DNA of 64,000 nucleotides from Acidobacteriota bacterium (GTDB lineage Bacteria > Acidobacteriota > Holophagae > Holophagales > Holophagaceae). The notes below the pieces were generated by a model. That model was not told the origin of the DNA. It did no database searches and was given only the letters and a program-made list of their open reading frames with translations. The number at the start of each line of letters is the position of its first letter. Position 1 is the first letter of the stretch. The stretch spans positions 124,001 through 188,000 of the forward strand of contig JACPYP010000012.1 of the NCBI GenBank assembly GCA_016195985.1, in the 5' to 3' direction. This document shows positions 1 to 8,741 of this stretch, one piece after another. A program made the translations under genes and the position numbers.

Positions 1-392
1 TGGGCGTTGGCGGCGCCGATGGTCGCGGGCCCGGGGCGCCCGTCCACGGCGATGGGCGGAGTGGCCTGGGCGTTGATGGCTCGCTGGAGAAGCTTCACGG
101 CCACTTCAAGGCCGCAGTTCACGCCGATGTCGAACAGCTTGATGGCGATGGAGGCATCAGAAAGGCCGTCCCAGCGCCAGTAGTCCGTCCGGTAGATGGT
201 GCTGGCCTGGTCCTGGGTCAGACCCTTCACATCGCCGGGGAAGCCGAGTTCGGGGTGGGCGCCGTTCCACTTGTCGAGGTTGCGCTGGATGATGCCGAAG
301 TTGGTGGCGCCGCCCGGGTCGGCGGGATGGTTCACGTAGCCGCCTTCATTGCCGAGGGTGAAGGCGAGGGCATTTTCGAGGGTGCTGTTCAA
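1..392 (-). CDS. GH108-family N-acetylmuramidase (phage-type lysozyme), C-terminus outside window
   Basis: Predicted to cleave the glycan strand of peptidoglycan. The N-terminus carries the GH108 hallmark NEGGYVNHPADPGGATNFG, with the catalytic Glu at residue 16. It is followed by a helical segment (TIYRTDYWRWDGL) and a C-terminal peptidoglycan-binding-like start (AVDGRPGPATIGA). About 130 residues are visible. The start is TTG at 392, six bases after AGGAG, and overlaps the stop of the upstream small gene by 4 nt, so the two are translationally coupled. GH108 enzymes lack signal peptides and usually come from phage or act in toxin secretion. I infer a prophage remnant or lysis/secretion aid. 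Confidence 0.85.
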   Translation of the reverse strand, partial: MNSTLENALAFTLGNEGGYVNHPADPGGATNFGIIQRNLDKWNGAHPELGFPGDVKGLTQDQASTIYRTDYWRWDGLSDASIAIKLFDIGVNCGLEVAVKLLQRAINAQATPPIAVDGRPGPATIGAANA

Positions 393-682
393 TGGGGGCT
401 CCTGGGAGTAGGGGGGCGCCAAGCCGGATGGGAACCCGAAACCTTGTCAACGCTCTGGTACAAGGTCCGGCCATCCGCGAGGTCGATGCGGGCGATGCGG
501 TGCTCGGCCACCAGGAGCGCCAGGGCCTCCTGCACGGCTTCGAGGGTGACGGAGTAGGCAGGCGCGGGAAGCCACCAATTGGCGATGCCCTCCAGACTGT
601 CGGCGGCCTCGGGATGATCCTGGAGGTAGAGCAGGATGCCTTGGCACAGGATGCTCGGGTCGGAGATGGGCGCAGGAGACAT
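389..682 (-). CDS. small hypothetical protein, winged-helix-like, coupled to the muramidase
   Basis: A 97-residue acidic/helical protein without signal peptide or membrane segment. The pattern (an ILLYLQDHPEAADSLEGI helix, a WW pair, then a VQEALALLVAEHRI helix followed by a short basic strand) looks like a small winged-helix fold, as in uncharacterised proteins that test for a condition and bind DNA or protein. Its TGA overlaps the TTG start of the muramidase gene, so the two form one transcript. ATG start at 682 has only a weak Shine-Dalgarno. The function is not known; the fold assignment is inference. Confidence 0.7.
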   Translation of the reverse strand: MSPAPISDPSILCQGILLYLQDHPEAADSLEGIANWWLPAPAYSVTLEAVQEALALLVAEHRIARIDLADGRTLYQSVDKVSGSHPAWRPPTPRSPH

Positions 683-1085: not shown

Positions 1086-2075
1086 TTGATCGGGCAATCG
1101 CCAGCCTTCCAAGCCACCGTGCGCCTCTTGGCCCGCATGGCTGCCTGTGACGCGCCGGTCCTGATCGAGGGTGAAACAGGCACGGGCAAGGAACTGGCCG
1201 CCCGCGCCATCCACTACCAAAGCGTGCGCCGGGACGGGCCTTTCATCCCGGTGAACTGCGGCGCCATTCCGGATGCCCTCATCGAAAGCGAATTGTTCGG
1301 CCATCGCAAAGGGGCCTTCACGGATGCCAAAGACCATCAGCCCGGGTTGGTGGTCCTGGCGGAGGACGGAACACTCTTCCTGGATGAAGTGGACGCCCTT
1401 TCGCCGAAGGGGCAGGTGACGCTGCTCCGTTTCCTGCAGGATCAGGAATTCCGGCCCCTGGGCGCCCGGCGGGTGGAGCATGGGAATGTCCGCATCCTGG
1501 CCGCCAGCAATTCCAGCCTGCCCCTGCTGGCGGAGAAGGGCGCTTTCCGTTCCGACCTGCTCTACCGTCTGCGGATCCTCTGCCTGGAACTGGCGCCGCT
1601 GCGGCATCGCCACGGGGATGTGGAACTCCTGGCGGGGTGGTTCCTGGAGGCCTGCGACAAGCGTTTCGGCCTCGGCCTGAAGAGCATCCACCCTGATTCC
1701 CTTCGGTGGATGAACGAGTACCACTGGCCGGGCAACATCCGTGAACTCGAGAACCTCCTCTACCGGGAGTACCTGCTGTCCGAAGGCCCGGTGATGCGCA
1801 TCGAGGCGCCCAGGGCCCTGGACGCGGCGCCATCCGGCGGGCGGGGCGCGTCCTCCGGGGAGCTCCAGTTCCACCGCGCCAAAGCCCAGGCGGTGGCGGC
1901 CTTCGAGCGCGACTACCTGGTGGGACTGCTGGGCCGGGCCGGGGGCAATGTGAGCCTGGCGGCCAAGCTGGCGGGCAAGGAACGGCGCAGCCTGGGCAAG
2001 CTGCTCAAGAAGTACGGGCTGGGCCATGCCTCCCGCGAGAAAGCCATCTTCCAGGAAGACCCCCTTTCCGCCTGA
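1086..2075 (+). CDS. sigma-54-dependent transcriptional activator without sensor domain
   Basis: An AAA+ enhancer-binding protein that remodels RNA polymerase with sigma-54. In order: Walker A GETGTGKE (residues 29-36), the sigma-54 contact loop at 76-81, Walker B GTLFLDEVD (about 95-103), an arginine-containing sensor region (SDLLYRLRIL), WPGNIREL, and a C-terminal Fis-type HTH (about 290-315). The contact loop reads GAFTDA instead of the near-invariant GAFTGA. There is no receiver, GAF or PAS domain: the protein begins at the AAA+ core. TTG start at 1086 follows AAGGGG; an in-frame TGA at 1059 rules out a longer form. It lies 165 bp ahead of the papain-like peptidase, its possible target. 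Clear family call; altered loop makes activity uncertain. Confidence 0.88.
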   Translation: MIGQSPAFQATVRLLARMAACDAPVLIEGETGTGKELAARAIHYQSVRRDGPFIPVNCGAIPDALIESELFGHRKGAFTDAKDHQPGLVVLAEDGTLFLDEVDALSPKGQVTLLRFLQDQEFRPLGARRVEHGNVRILAASNSSLPLLAEKGAFRSDLLYRLRILCLELAPLRHRHGDVELLAGWFLEACDKRFGLGLKSIHPDSLRWMNEYHWPGNIRELENLLYREYLLSEGPVMRIEAPRALDAAPSGGRGASSGELQFHRAKAQAVAAFERDYLVGLLGRAGGNVSLAAKLAGKERRSLGKLLKKYGLGHASREKAIFQEDPLSA

Positions 2076-2240: not shown

Positions 2241-2948
2241 ATGGCGAATTCAGCCCATCCTCAGCGCATCGGACTCATCCCCGAACACGATTCAACACAT
2301 GGAGGGCGCCTGGGGAGGCACCTCCATTTCGACGACCGCAGCTGGAATTTCCCCGTGCGGCTTCTCAAGGGGGCCGCCATCCAGACCCGGACCTGGGAGC
2401 GTTCGACGAAACCCTTCAACCAGGGCGAGCTGGGTTCCTGCACGGGCAACGGCGCGGTCGGGGTGGCCTGCTCCAGACCCTACCGGCAGACGGGCATCCG
2501 CTACACGGAGACCCTGGCGAAAAAGGTGTACAGCCGCGCGACCCATGACGACACCATCGTGGGCGCCTGGCCGCCGAAGGATACAGGCTCCACCGTGCTG
2601 GGGGCCATGAAGGCCCTGCGGGAGCTGGGCATGGCCAAGGGCTACCACTGGTGCTTCAGCCTCGATGACGTGCTCAAAACCCTCTCGACCTTGGGCCCCG
2701 TGGAGGTGGGCGTGAATTGGTACGAAGGCTTCGACAAGCCGGATGCCAAGGGGCTGGTGAAAGTGGGGGGCTCCATCCGGGGAGGGCATGCCTTCGAGCT
2801 GCTGGGCGTGGACGCGGAAAAGAAACTGGTCTGGGGCATCAATTCCTGGGGCCCGGATTGGGGCCTCGGCGGTCATTTCGCCTTTTCCTGGAAGGACCTG
2901 GACCGCCTCCTGCACGAGCAGGGCGAAGCCTCCACCCTATCGTTCTAG
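2241..2948 (+). CDS. papain-like (C1A-type) cysteine peptidase, cytosolic
   Basis: A 235-residue protein with a complete papain-type catalytic set: oxyanion Gln61 and nucleophile Cys67 in NQGELGSCTGNGA, His183 in RGGHAFELLG, and Asn201 in INSWGPDWG. Unlike eukaryotic cathepsins there is no propeptide and no signal peptide, so it probably acts in the cytosol or leaves the cell by another route. ATG at 2241 is preceded by GGAGG at good spacing; an in-frame extension upstream to 2079 lacks family resemblance. Nine bases separate it from the next gene, a large membrane protein, so the pair is likely co-transcribed. Compact C1 peptidases of this type occur in phages and bacteria with unknown substrates. 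Confidence 0.85.
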   Translation: MANSAHPQRIGLIPEHDSTHGGRLGRHLHFDDRSWNFPVRLLKGAAIQTRTWERSTKPFNQGELGSCTGNGAVGVACSRPYRQTGIRYTETLAKKVYSRATHDDTIVGAWPPKDTGSTVLGAMKALRELGMAKGYHWCFSLDDVLKTLSTLGPVEVGVNWYEGFDKPDAKGLVKVGGSIRGGHAFELLGVDAEKKLVWGINSWGPDWGLGGHFAFSWKDLDRLLHEQGEASTLSF

Positions 2949-2957
2949 GATTCTCCG

Positions 2958-5900
2958 TTGGCCAAGGTCTTCTCCCCCCTCGCCCTCGGCGTCGGCTTCA
3001 CGGCCCTGCTCGCGCTGGTCCCGGGCCTGGGCCTTGGTTCCACCAGCCCCAAGCCCGTGACGGCTTCCGCCAAAGCCGCTGAGCCCCGGAAACCCTCCGG
3101 AGAGGGTGGGGTGGGAGCCCTGGTGGAGCAATGCCTGCGGGACCGGGCCAGGGCCTCCGCCGCGTCCGTGGAGGCCACCATCCTGACCCTTCCGGACCCT
3201 CAGCGGACGAATATGGGGCTGTGGTTCGACCTGCGCCTGAACGCGGCGCAAAGGGCATTCCGGACCTTCGATTTCCTGCCGCGGAGCTTCTATCTGCCCT
3301 GGGGAACGGCGGCGAAGGAGGAGCGGGAATCCGGCGCTTCTTCGGCCTTTCCCGATCCGGGGCTCGGCTTCATCTGGTTCGCCCGGGAGGGGACTGCGCC
3401 GGCCTACCACGCGCTGTTCATCGTGGGCGAAAGCCAGGCCTTGGGCGTGAACCGCGAGGCCCTCCGCCAGGCCTTGCAATGGGCGGCCAAGGTGGTCCCG
3501 GCGGGCGCGGACCGCCGGGTTTCGATCCTGGGCCCCCAGTTTTCCGGGAGCCTGACCTCCCTCGGCGCGGGCCTGGAATCCCACTTCAAGGAGCCATCCG
3601 CGCTGGCCGTGCGCATCCAGGGCACCACCACCCTCGATGCCAGCGGCACCAAGGTGTTGCGGGAGGCCATCGGCCCCGTGGAGCCCCGCCGTTTGGAAAT
3701 CTCCACCTGGACCTGCAACCTTTCGGGCACCGCCAAGGAGAGCCTGCTGAGCTGGTACATGGAGGAAGCGGGCTGGCCCCGGGACGCCTCCAAGGTCGCG
3801 CTGTTCACGGAGGCGAACACGGCCTACCGGCGGCAGGCCAAGCTGGGCGAGGCCATGACCCAGATCCTCTTCCCCATGGGATTGTCCCGGTTGCGCAGCG
3901 AGCGGCAGGCCATGGAGCGCAGCCTGGGGAAGGAGGGGACCACGGAGCTGGTGCTTCCCTCCAGCCTGCTGGGCCCGGCCCAGGAGGAGGCGCAGCGGGT
4001 GCTGGACACCGCGCCCCAGTACTCCCCCGACACCATCCGGAACACGGAGCTCACGCTCGCCGGAACCGTCCTCAGCCTGGCCCGCCGGGGGTACACCCAT
4101 GTGGGCATTTCCGCCAGCGACCCCCAGGATCTGATGTTCCTGGCCGAGCGGATCCGCGCCTACCACCCCTCCTGCACGCTCTTCACCACCAGCGGGAACC
4201 ACAGCCTCTTCGCCCATCCCAACGTCAGCCAGGCCATGGATGGCATGGTGATGTTCGGCGGCTATCCGGTGACGGATGCCGTGCGGGCCCTCTCCCTGCA
4301 GAAAGGGGAGCTGGAATCCCCGGTGCGCTTCACCTCCGAGGGCGAGTACGCCACCTACTACGCGACCCTGCTGCTTCTGGATCCCGCCCGCGCCAAGGAT
4401 CCCGAGCGGATCTTCTGGGGGCGCCAAGGCTATGTCTCCATCGTGAAGGGCGGCGGCGTGTGGCCCCTGCGGCACGGCGGCCTGGAGGCGGGTGGGGAAC
4501 GGCCGGCGTGGAACCGCGATGTGGAGGGGCGCTACCGGGAAGTGGCCACCCAGAGCCGGGATCTTGTCCAGTACGTGCACTCCCGGCTGCGGCAGCTGGC
4601 GCTGCTGCTGGCGGGCCTGGGGGCGGCGGCGGCCCTGACCTTCCTGGGCCCGCTGATGGGGGTGGCCCGCGTGCCCAGCACCGAGCCGGGTCTCGGCCCC
4701 TACCGGAACCTCCTGGCGGGGGCCGTCCTCGCCCTGGGCATCCTCAGCTTCCTGGCCATGGGTTATGTCCTGCCCCTGGCGGTGCTGAGGGGATCGCCCT
4801 GGCGGGACCCCTTCCTGTGGATGAGCCTGGCGGTCTGGGCGGCTTTCGCGGTGCTGACGTTCGGGGCGCTCTCGGGGCGGCTGGGCAGCGCGCGGGCGCT
4901 CCTGCTGTCCGTTCTGGCCCTGGTTCCGGCCTGCCTCATGGCCTGGTGGGGACCGCGGCATTTCCTCGACTACATGCCGGATTACCTGCGCTTCTCCTCG
5001 CCAGGACGGGGGGTCTCGATGCTGCCGACCATGGTCATTCTGGCGATGGGCCTCGCCCTGTTGCTACGGACCTGGTTCGCGGTGCGCTGCCAGGGGCACG
5101 AAGCCTTCTGGCCCGCGCCCCTGGGCCTCGACGATCCGAAGATTCTCGGCCTCCGCCACCTTCGGGGGCTCCATTTCCAACCCTGGACCTTCGGCCTCGT
5201 GGCGGTTCTGGCAGGCTTCCAGTGGTTCCTCCCCGGCGGCATCATCCGGCCGTTGATGGAGGGGCAGGGGGCTGCCCTGGCGGTGGTGGCCGTGGCCAGC
5301 GGGCTGCTCCTGGCCAGCCTGTTCCTGTTCTGGCAGTTCCACCAGGGCTGGCAGGATCTGCGCCGTGTGCTGGAAGCGCTCGATTTCTGCTCCTACCGCG
5401 CGGCCTTCGCCGAGGTGGGGCGGCTGGTGGAATGGAACGCCATGCGGGCCCTGGGCCGGGGGCTGTGGATGCACCGGTCCAGCCTCCGGGGGCGGGAGAT
5501 CCTGAGGGCCCAGCGAGACTGGGTGGCCGAGGTGGAACCGGATTTCGCGGCCCACCTCGATGCGCTGGATGCCATCGAAGCGGGCACCTCCAAGGCGCGA
5601 AGAGGCCTGGGCGAGTACCAGAAGTGGCGGGTGCGCCTGGCTGTGGCCCGCGAAATGACCGCCTGCGGAGACGCCCTGGCCCTGGCCTGCGCGAAGCATC
5701 CCGCCGGAGCCACGGCCACGGCCCATCCCGAGGTGGACCTCTTCAAGGCGCTGCGGGCCGTCCACTTCATCCGCCAGGCCTTCCTGGTGCTGCGCCACCT
5801 GCTCATCGGATCGGTGGGCACGCTGGTCCTGCTGGTGCTGGGAATCGCGGCCTTCGACTTCCAGCCCAAGAACGATGTGTTGATCCTGCTTTGCGGCTTC

Positions 5901-6134
5901 CTGCTGGCCATGGCCGCGTGGGCGGGCATGGCCATCCTGAACATGGAGCGGGATCCCCTGCTCAGCCTCATGGAAGGCACCCAGGCCGGGGAAGTGAAGC
6001 TGAGCCTCGGGCTGGTGGAGAACGGCTTCCGCTTCGTGCTCGCCCCCTTGCTGCTCCTGCTGGCGGCCCTCAACCCTTCCTTCGGCGGCCTTCTGGTGCA
6101 GGTGTTCAACCCGCTGATGCATCTCCTGAAGTGA
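2958..6134 (+). CDS. large polytopic membrane protein with periplasmic ligand-binding-like region
   Basis: 1058 residues, function unknown. A signal-anchor (residues 8-28) is followed by about 500 periplasmic residues whose strand/helix pattern (VSILGPQFSGSLTSL; HVGISASDPQDLMFLAERI; LFTTSGNHSLFAHP) recalls type-1 periplasmic-binding folds. After residue 540 there are about seven membrane segments (near 544-566, 584-608, 617-637, 643-664, 688-707, 742-762, 773-796), a soluble stretch to about 945, and three more segments to the C-terminus. Start TTG at 2958, seven bases after AGGA, 9 nt behind the peptidase gene. I have a memory of similar large proteins in planctomycetes and acidobacteria but no function. 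A sensor or transporter role is inference. Confidence 0.82.
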   Translation: MAKVFSPLALGVGFTALLALVPGLGLGSTSPKPVTASAKAAEPRKPSGEGGVGALVEQCLRDRARASAASVEATILTLPDPQRTNMGLWFDLRLNAAQRAFRTFDFLPRSFYLPWGTAAKEERESGASSAFPDPGLGFIWFAREGTAPAYHALFIVGESQALGVNREALRQALQWAAKVVPAGADRRVSILGPQFSGSLTSLGAGLESHFKEPSALAVRIQGTTTLDASGTKVLREAIGPVEPRRLEISTWTCNLSGTAKESLLSWYMEEAGWPRDASKVALFTEANTAYRRQAKLGEAMTQILFPMGLSRLRSERQAMERSLGKEGTTELVLPSSLLGPAQEEAQRVLDTAPQYSPDTIRNTELTLAGTVLSLARRGYTHVGISASDPQDLMFLAERIRAYHPSCTLFTTSGNHSLFAHPNVSQAMDGMVMFGGYPVTDAVRALSLQKGELESPVRFTSEGEYATYYATLLLLDPARAKDPERIFWGRQGYVSIVKGGGVWPLRHGGLEAGGERPAWNRDVEGRYREVATQSRDLVQYVHSRLRQLALLLAGLGAAAALTFLGPLMGVARVPSTEPGLGPYRNLLAGAVLALGILSFLAMGYVLPLAVLRGSPWRDPFLWMSLAVWAAFAVLTFGALSGRLGSARALLLSVLALVPACLMAWWGPRHFLDYMPDYLRFSSPGRGVSMLPTMVILAMGLALLLRTWFAVRCQGHEAFWPAPLGLDDPKILGLRHLRGLHFQPWTFGLVAVLAGFQWFLPGGIIRPLMEGQGAALAVVAVASGLLLASLFLFWQFHQGWQDLRRVLEALDFCSYRAAFAEVGRLVEWNAMRALGRGLWMHRSSLRGREILRAQRDWVAEVEPDFAAHLDALDAIEAGTSKARRGLGEYQKWRVRLAVAREMTACGDALALACAKHPAGATATAHPEVDLFKALRAVHFIRQAFLVLRHLLIGSVGTLVLLVLGIAAFDFQPKNDVLILLCGFLLAMAAWAGMAILNMERDPLLSLMEGTQAGEVKLSLGLVENGFRFVLAPLLLLLAALNPSFGGLLVQVFNPLMHLLK

Positions 6135-6597: not shown

Positions 6598-7470
6598 CTA
6601 GAGCCCCCGGGACCACTCCGGACGGAGGGCCACGCGCCCTGCCAGGGCTTCGTCGATGGCGGCCAGGATCGATTCCCGGTCCCGCGGCAGGCGGCCGCCG
6701 ATGGGCAGGTAGTTGGAGGCGTGGTTGGAGCGGAAGATGGCACCGCTTGGCCGGGCTTCCTCCACGAACCAGCGTTGTTCCTGGAGCAGCTCATGCACAT
6801 CGGGCAGCTCGAAGCGGCCCTGGTCCTCCAGCCGGGAGATGGGGGTGCCCGGAACCACGGTGAGGGTGAGCGTCGACAGGAATTTGGGGTCCATGGCCGT
6901 GGCCAGGCGCCCCGAGGCGCGGGCGTGCTCTTCACTGCGTTCGCGGCCGCCCGCGCCCAGCAGGAAGATGAGGGACTGGTCCATGCCGGCTTCCCGGGCC
7001 CTGCGGGCGGCTTCGGTGTGCTCGGCAGCGGTGGCGCCCTTGGCGATGCGCCGCAGGGTCACGTCGTCGCCGGATTCAGGGCCGATGTAGAGCAGCGACA
7101 GGCCAAGCTCCCGCAGGTGGCGGAGCTCCGCGGGCGTTTTCTCCAGCAGGTTGCGGGCCGTGGCGTAGGTGCTTACGCGCCTCAGGCGGGGAAAGGCCTG
7201 CGCCAGCGCCAGGAGGATGGGCTCCCAGTGCCCCATCTCCATGCCCAGTGGATCGCCGTCGGCCACGAAGACGTGGCGGACCAGGTCCGCGTAGCGGCCG
7301 CCGGCCTCGGCGACATCCGCCAGCACGGCATCGAGCGGGCGCACCCGGTACTGCTTGTCGCGGTACATGGCGCAGTAGGTGCAGGCGTTCCATGAACACC
7401 CGAGGGTGGCCTGGAGAATGAAGGAATCAGCCTCGCTGGGCGGGCGAAAGAGAGGTTCGTCGTAGCGCAC
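6598..7470 (-). CDS. radical SAM protein
   Basis: A 290-residue radical S-adenosylmethionine enzyme. The cluster-binding motif is CSWNACTYC near residues 30-38, spaced CX4CX2C, followed by AMYRDKQYRVR. The barrel carries VFVADGDPL, RVSTYATARNLL and LLYIGPESGDD, which resemble the SAM-binding strands of Elp3/YgiQ-like proteins, and IFLLGAGGRERSEEHA. No B12 domain, SPASM extension or TRAM domain is seen. Substrate unknown. ATG at 7470; it is divergent from the aminotransferase gene with 95 bp between the starts. Confidence 0.88.
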   Translation of the reverse strand: MRYDEPLFRPPSEADSFILQATLGCSWNACTYCAMYRDKQYRVRPLDAVLADVAEAGGRYADLVRHVFVADGDPLGMEMGHWEPILLALAQAFPRLRRVSTYATARNLLEKTPAELRHLRELGLSLLYIGPESGDDVTLRRIAKGATAAEHTEAARRAREAGMDQSLIFLLGAGGRERSEEHARASGRLATAMDPKFLSTLTLTVVPGTPISRLEDQGRFELPDVHELLQEQRWFVEEARPSGAIFRSNHASNYLPIGGRLPRDRESILAAIDEALAGRVALRPEWSRGL

Positions 7471-7565
7471 AGGCCATTCTCCCGCAAACGGAGCCCCAGC
7501 GGGGATTCTTGGCGCGGCGGGAGCGCGTGCGCCACAATCGCAAGGTCCCGATCCCCCGGAGCCCC

Positions 7566-8741
7566 ATGCATCCCATCCATCGCACCGCCCTCCGCACTCA
7601 CGGTTTCACCGAATCCGTCATCCGGGGGATGACGCGGCTGGCCAACGAGCACGGCGCCATCAACCTCGCCCAGGGCTTTCCCAATTTTCCGGCCCCGGGA
7701 ATCATCAAGCAGGCCGCGGTGGCAGCCATCCGCGCCGATGTGAACCAGTACGCCATCACCTGGGGATCGAAGCGCCTGCGCGAAGCCCTGTCCCGGAAGA
7801 TGCAAGCCTTCTATGGCCTTGCGGTGGATCCCGAAACGGAGATCACCATCGCTTGCGGCGCCACGGAAGCCATGGCCTCGGTGCTGATGGCCTTGGTGGA
7901 TCCCGGCGGGGAAGTGGTCGTCTTCGAGCCCTGGTACGAGAACTACGGTCCCGATGCCGTGCTCTGCGGCGCGAAGCCCGTGAACGTGCCGCTGCCTGTG
8001 GGCCAGCCGCTGGATCTCGACCGGTTGGCCAAGGCCTTCGGGCCGAAGACCCGGGCCATCATCCTGAACACGCCCAACAATCCCACGGGCAAAGTCTTCA
8101 CGGCGGACGAGCTGGCGGGCATCGCGGCCCTTTGCCAGCGCCACGGCGCCTACGCCATCACCGACGAGATCTACGAACACATCGTCTACGTGGGGGTTCA
8201 CATCCCCATGGCCACGCTGCCCGGCATGGCCGAGCGCACCATCACCATTTCCGGCGCTTCGAAAACCTACGCCGTCACGGGCTGGCGCATCGGCACCATC
8301 ATCGCTCCCCGGGAGTTGACCGCCGCCATCCGCAAGGTCCACGACTTTCTCACCGTGGGCGCGCCCGCGCCGCTGCAGGAGGCGGTGGCCGTGGCCATGG
8401 AGGAACTGCCCCGCGGCTACTACACGCAGATGGCTGATGCCTACCGCCAGCGCCGCGACCTGCTTTGCGGCGCCCTTGCGCAGGCGGGGTTCAAGCTACA
8501 GCCGCCCCAGGGTGCCTACTACGTGCTGGCGGACTACTCGGCGCTGGGGCAGGAGGATGATGTGGCTTTCGCCACGCGCCTGGTGAAGGAGGCGGGAGTG
8601 GCCACGGTGCCCCTGTCGAGTTTCATCTCCGATCCGGCCTCGTCGCGCATGGTGCGCTTCGCCTTCTGCAAGACCGAGGACCTTCTGGCGGAAGCGGGGC
8701 AGAAGCTCCTCCGCTTCGCCGGGCAGAGGGCCCGGACGTGA
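7566..8741 (+). CDS. class I/II PLP-dependent aminotransferase (methionine/kynurenine/aspartate-type)
   Basis: 391 residues of fold-type I aminotransferase. Key features: GAINLAQGFPNFPAP near the N-terminus (the substrate-gate motif shared with YbdL and kynurenine aminotransferases), NTPNNPTGKVF, TDEIYEHIVY, and the PLP Schiff-base lysine in SGASKTYAVTGWRIG. It likely transfers amino groups from methionine, aromatic amino acids or glutamine to a keto acid; the exact donor is not visible. ATG at 7566 matches family N-termini; a longer frame reaching 7509 adds non-homologous sequence. The next gene starts inside its stop codon (GTGA overlap). Confidence 0.9.
   Translation: MHPIHRTALRTHGFTESVIRGMTRLANEHGAINLAQGFPNFPAPGIIKQAAVAAIRADVNQYAITWGSKRLREALSRKMQAFYGLAVDPETEITIACGATEAMASVLMALVDPGGEVVVFEPWYENYGPDAVLCGAKPVNVPLPVGQPLDLDRLAKAFGPKTRAIILNTPNNPTGKVFTADELAGIAALCQRHGAYAITDEIYEHIVYVGVHIPMATLPGMAERTITISGASKTYAVTGWRIGTIIAPRELTAAIRKVHDFLTVGAPAPLQEAVAVAMEELPRGYYTQMADAYRQRRDLLCGALAQAGFKLQPPQGAYYVLADYSALGQEDDVAFATRLVKEAGVATVPLSSFISDPASSRMVRFAFCKTEDLLAEAGQKLLRFAGQRART

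Follow-up and report, generated by a model that had tools for sequence, protein, structure and literature searches.

Which function joins a papain-like peptidase to the 1058-residue membrane protein encoded directly behind it? The question is raised by a 64,000-nucleotide stretch of contig JACPYP010000012.1 (positions 124,001 to 188,000 of the forward strand; this whole stretch is called the window below), in which the genes of the peptidase, P1, and of the membrane protein, P2, follow each other. The window genome is that of a Geothrix, a soil bacterium which, together with other Holophagaceae, belongs to Acidobacteriota. A first-pass annotation had treated the two genes as a pair in which a membrane sensor or channel hands a cytosolic protease its cue. 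As the picture of a private pair this is only partly supported, and it overlooked a sigma-54 activator, lysis genes and a regulon which P1 and P2 share with other genes. We give somewhat better than even odds (about 0.57) to a different reading, in which P1-P2 form the right arm of a module with two arms, controlled by sigma-54 and serving phage-type lysis or exoenzyme release. Rather than being a protease with its own sensor, they probably help to release enzymes or to open the cell.

The evidence which carries this reading is the arrangement of genes and control sites around P1 and P2. The order in the Geothrix module loci is a holin-like gene, a GH108 gene and a small gene, the last of these divergent from an activator gene which is followed by P1 and P2. 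In the window the activator (1086-2075, forward strand) is a PspF-like sigma-54 activator with an AAA+ and a Fis-type helix-turn-helix domain recognized by Pfam (PF00158 with E 6e-60, PF25601 and PF02954), and RpoN is encoded in the same genome. Each arm possesses a sigma-54 -24/-12 element identified by pattern and conservation, TGGCCCACCACTTGCT at 713-728 on the reverse strand for the left arm and TGGTCCGCAGGTTGCA at 2186-2201 on the forward strand for the P1-P2 arm. All 10 module loci examined have such an element 45-70 bp upstream of their small gene, and eight of 10 have one at -52 to -58 of P1, while it is absent upstream of solo P1 genes (0/9) and also upstream of the activator gene. 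Because lone matches to this pattern are not rare (8 observed in the window versus 10.6 expected), it is their position and conservation that carry weight. Both arms also possess a candidate activator site, an inverted repeat GGGT-N8-ACCC recognized by its conservation, at 863-878 in the left arm and at 2081-2096 (GGGTGGGTTTCGACCC) in the P1-P2 arm. The repeat is present upstream of the module P1 in 11 of 11 loci and upstream of the small gene, at -196 to -230, in nine of 10, and it is again absent from the nine solo P1 loci. The window has five such repeats where 1.5 are expected, and two of them are situated exactly in the intergenic regions of the two arms; the other three (30321, 34016 and 36205) have no -24/-12 element near and are probably chance matches. 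The activator probably binds the repeats as enhancers. When a matrix for the P1 site was run over 1.25 Mb of the genome's own DNA, the window site, which is itself in the training set, scored 26.0 and the next one 15.1.

The same signature is also found away from the module. In 12 genomes the enhancer-promoter pattern recovered most of the module promoters, with far fewer matches for the reversed control pattern, and the P1-site matrix detected four further sites in three genomes, with scores of 21.5-33.9. The site in genome G036 precedes a PF04185 phosphoesterase gene, which is followed by the gene of a 269-residue protein with the motif HELCEAITD. Sites in G031 and G243 each precede a related 394-residue protein with the motif SHEVVEALSDP and DUF3892, and a second site in G031 precedes a subtilase. 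Their motifs, read by eye, make the 269- and 394-residue proteins metallopeptidase-like. By eye, none of these proteins shows an obvious signal peptide apart from the subtilase, whose N-terminus contains a hydrophobic stretch.

The left arm starts with a protein of 97 residues ('SDPSxLCQGIL'; 389-682, reverse strand), whose place is conserved in the module loci, which has no Pfam or PHROG match and which looks winged-helix-like by eye. The GH108 gene behind it (1-392, reverse strand; G000:C20:123856-124392, only its 3' part running off the window edge) was recognized as a muramidase or endolysin from its translation and from Pfam and PHROG; it matches PHROG 315 'endolysin' with E 6e-45, and PF05838 and PF09374 (PG_binding_3) were found on the orthologue in locus L044. 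The holin-like gene is mapped next after it, outside the window (about C20:123330-123905), and in Rhodoferax phage P26218 a GH108 gene and a holin-like gene are likewise neighbours. The activator is built as PspF-type sigma-54 activators are, with AAA+ and Fis-type helix-turn-helix domains and no N-terminal sensory domain. It differs from them by the motif GAFTDA where GAFTGA is usual (in 11 of the 11 copies compared), in that no PspA-type partner was identified, and in its predicted targets, which are lysis and hydrolase genes. Two further observations concern the small gene. About 1 kb of extra DNA, an apparent mobile-element remnant, lies between it and the activator gene in G020 (L057, ~7100-8540), at the place where the left-arm enhancer is expected. 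A second copy of the 'SDPSxLCQGIL' protein is encoded in G031 (C60, L066:3903-4163), on the same contig as an extracellular contractile injection system (eCIS) cluster.

P1 (2241-2948, forward strand) has 235 residues and an ATG start preceded by GGAGG. Profile, structure-database and alignment matches define it as a signal-less papain-like (C1-type) cysteine peptidase of the phage family phrog_16701. It had been annotated as a complete enzyme with Cys67, His183 and Asn201 and with neither propeptide nor signal peptide, and all of this was borne out. The three residues, as well as Gln61 six residues N-terminal to Cys67, are invariant in 18 homologues, and no propeptide domain, signal peptide or transmembrane segment is visible in the sequence. 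In its Gln-Cys-His-Asn catalytic set P1 agrees with papain family C1. The Pfam Peptidase_C1 profile (PF00112) gives 20.3 bits against a gathering cut-off of 20.7, cathepsin B-like chains in the PDB match with E 1e-7, and residues 23-231 match positions 4-227 of the 234 of phrog_16701 with E 1.6e-44. The relative of P1 in the Gordonia phage Morgana (gp30), a putative cysteine protease, is encoded in a lysis cassette with the order lysin A, x, protease, holin, x, lysin B; the relative in phage Mufasa8 likewise lies within a lysis cassette. P1 aligns with this family nearly full-length and shares with it the lysis-gene neighbours; unlike the phage proteins it is chromosomal and, in Geothrix, also found solo.

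P2 (2958-6134, forward strand) was confirmed as a protein of 1058 residues beginning 9 bp after P1. Its start codon is TTG, and the start is conserved in relatives as TTG or ATG, usually followed by Ser-Lys. Fusion of P1 and P2 by read-through of an in-frame TAG was considered and rejected, the gaps in relatives being 9-74 bp and mostly out of frame. P2 has no significant match in Pfam, NCBIfam, PHROG or PADLOC, and its homologues define an unnamed Acidobacteriota protein family of about 1050-1450 residues. Its topology, derived from hydropathy, consists of an N-terminal anchor (1-28), an extracytoplasmic part of 515 residues, seven transmembrane segments (544-795), a loop of 144 residues (796-939) and three more transmembrane segments (940-1035), in agreement with the about ten helices annotated before. 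Residues ~70-512 are predicted to form the two-lobe alpha/beta fold of type I periplasmic binding proteins. In an AlphaFold2 model built on 26 sequences, of which 15 are distant (19-23% identity), with a mean predicted local distance difference test score (pLDDT) of 72.5 and a predicted template modelling score of 0.66, this part matches LivK (VIA Z 22.2, 306 residues, 3.4 Å) and AmiC (Z 19.6), and Foldseek matches it to type I periplasmic binding proteins with E 4.5e-4. This model replaced a first one, made from ten close relatives only, which had a pLDDT of 57 and weak structure matches. A GPxFSGS-type loop is conserved within the family. The periplasmic ligand-binding-like region suspected earlier is accordingly real. 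The soluble loop, which had been placed at 800-945, exists too, but it is separate from the ligand-binding-like region and is predicted to be cytosolic by parity and charge (22 K/R versus 18 D/E). With LivK and AmiC P2 shares the predicted fold; unlike them it has this domain fused to some ten transmembrane helices and a cytosolic loop in one chain that no Pfam family covers. An identity of P2 as SLATT/DUF4231 protein or transporter was rejected, as such matches are weak and far under the cut-offs, and a search for plasmid-borne P2 gave no match.

How firmly are the two genes linked? Gene calls in relatives were made from open reading frames and codon-position G+C. Among the window genome and 36 congeners P1 is present in 21 and P2 in 10. 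The phylum search, in which 26 of 396 genomes possess a P2 homologue (about 7% of the sampled Acidobacteriota), added an eleventh Geothrix genome with P2, G243, which also has P1. P1 and P2 are adjacent in nine of these 11 genomes, and in G031 they are found on different contigs. Seen from P1 the linkage is different, for in more than half of the P1-bearing Geothrix genomes P1 has no P2 adjacent to it and is situated next to clpB or is flanked by pntA and a SnoaL-like gene. By the earlier proposal, that finding the genes apart in most genomes would speak against their coupling, P2 agrees with the coupling and P1 speaks against it. One P1 adjoining clpB, in G004 (C28, L068:9522-10223), is matched in three pieces with only 53% identity and could be either decayed or misassembled.

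Outside Geothrix the neighbours of P2 vary, and a search for a fixed partner gene across the phylum found none that recurs by sequence. Envelope hydrolases are encoded near some of the homologues, which favours a link with lysis. In G396 (C51, L142:6544-9135) an 863-residue protein, encoded 5 bp after the P2 homologue, is a fusion of an N-acetylmuramidase (PF11860) with a papain domain (phrog_16701) and a hydrolase-like region with GxSxG. The next gene in G277 (L101) encodes a patatin/DUF3376 protein, with an amidase further on, and a patatin gene is also next to the P2 homologue of G113 (L095). TIR-like and DUF4231/SLATT-like open reading frames, recognized by eye, lie ~6-8 kb from the P2 homologue of G254 (L106:16614-18996).

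A number of observations weigh against a lysis or release module. Solo P1 without lysis genes or a sigma-54 site is common in Geothrix, which indicates that P1 has a role outside the module. In G009 P2 comes straight after the activator, without P1, and in G. limicola (L044) an activator-P1 module has no P2 at that locus. Most P2 homologues outside Geothrix have no recognizable hydrolase next door. The only profile matches of the holin-like protein are to phage families without a known function, with one 'holin' annotation among the matches listed. A spanin was not identified, no spanin search having been made, and a scan of ~29% of the window's own genome (~1.25 Mb including overlaps, of a 4.26-Mb assembly) brought up no additional member of the regulon.

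Several of these points bear as well on the model of the first-pass annotation, in which P2 would be a dedicated sensor or channel regulating cytosolic P1 directly, for example via the 796-939 loop, and independently of lysis. Much of what this model builds on was found: P1 and P2 are adjacent wherever P2 occurs in Geothrix with the two exceptions given above, they have a common predicted sigma-54 promoter and enhancer, a binding-protein fold is predicted outside and a big loop in the cytosol, and in distant G396 a P2 homologue directly precedes a fusion with a papain domain of the P1 type. But the two genes do not form a closed unit, as most P1-bearing genomes have P1 on its own, G009 and G. 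limicola each miss one partner, the distant P2 homologues have other neighbours, and the regulatory sites of P1 and P2 are shared with lysis genes. We therefore consider regulation independent of lysis unlikely, while direct signalling from P2 to P1 is possible within a lysis or release frame. Lysis genes under a sensorless activator, a patchy presence in the genus and the sensor-like ectodomain of P2 could also be attributed to a programmed-death defence (abortive infection), in which P2 or the activator detects phage or a damaged envelope and the holin, endolysin and protease kill the cell. This is improbable, because neither P1 nor P2 has a PADLOC match, the surroundings of the module showed no defence genes, and the co-regulated phosphoesterase and subtilase look like exoenzymes.

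Just as improbable, in our view, is a role of the module in the release of contractile injection particles (eCIS) or their effectors. The gp19-type tube gene is commoner in Geothrix genomes with P2 (7/10 versus 3/27, p 0.001) and, phylum-wide, in genomes with a P2 homologue (11/26 versus 39/370, p 8e-5), both comparisons ignoring phylogeny, and in G027 and G031 the contig that carries the module or a part of it also has eCIS genes, which in G262 and G345 lie beside P2 homologues (sheath and tube nearby in two). Shared ancestry weakens this co-occurrence, several of the Geothrix tube matches stand alone as gp19-like orphans with no other part of an eCIS, and neither the window genome nor G020 has any match to tube or sheath (PF06841, PF17482). 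The poorest account of the locus is a degenerate prophage lysis remnant made of unrelated neighbours with no joint function. Relatives of GH108, of the holin-like protein and of P1 are all found in phages, but the ratios of nonsynonymous to synonymous substitution (0.09 for P1 and 0.17 for P2, against the relative G020) indicate purifying selection, under which the activator gene is also found; the order of the arms, the promoters and the enhancers are conserved across divergent genomes, and no phage structural genes were recognized beside the module. We regard it as very improbable. As a separate observation, the orphan T4 gp19-like tube genes of Geothrix, with no sheath or baseplate, are found at L162, L163, L166 and L060:6171-6704, and one in G024 lies ~0.6 kb after P2.

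Under the preferred reading of a lysis or exoenzyme-release module, the PspF-like activator would bind the GGGT-N8-ACCC enhancers and turn on both arms, one with the small protein, the GH108 endolysin and the holin-like protein, the other with P1 and P2. Their products would open the envelope and release or activate signal-less hydrolases, P1 being either a protease associated with lysis or itself among the enzymes released. The role of membrane partner would fall to P2, which may read a periplasmic ligand by its binding-protein domain and gate or time the process via its transmembrane and cytosolic parts. The identical enhancer-promoter signature would, in some Geothrix, also drive hydrolase genes elsewhere, several of them without an obvious signal peptide. 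Of this account, the sequences show the build of both proteins, the gene content and order, the regulatory sites common to both arms and their counterparts in relatives, and the fold predicted for P2; activator binding, holin function, lysis, release, the part played by P1 and the ligand and output of P2 are inferred.

In its logic this would be comparable to the type 10 (holin/endolysin-based) secretion system of Yersinia entomophaga, in which a lysis cassette is under the control of RoeA (PMC10101115; PMC10847048). In both, chromosomal phage-type lysis genes lie beside a sensorless dedicated regulator and exoproteins are co-regulated, in Geothrix by prediction, and of the type 10 components the Geothrix module possesses the peptidoglycan hydrolase (GH108 with PG_binding_3). 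The Geothrix module differs in its control, by a predicted sigma-54 activator with conserved enhancers, and in two further members of its regulon, a protease of the papain type and a membrane protein carrying a periplasmic-binding-protein domain. No description of such a module was found in the open literature on sigma-54 with holin or endolysin, or on Geothrix with holin.

A wider proposal is that P2 founds a new family of membrane receptors, built of an ectodomain of the type I binding-protein kind and a polytopic membrane part, which controls or conducts the release of signal-less envelope hydrolases. It would belong to a new Acidobacteriota lysis or secretion system, where a sigma-54 activator makes hydrolases and lysis proteins and P2 times their action by a periplasmic ligand. 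We put this forward tentatively, as rather doubtful in its full extent. If the module reading is true, phage-type lysis genes would be coupled to hydrolases by sigma-54 in an environmental phylum whose secretion routes have been little studied, and the regulon would also include a receptor-like membrane protein. Owing to the conserved enhancer this regulon is directly predictable and testable in cultured Geothrix, and the module provides the first context for the unnamed P2 family.

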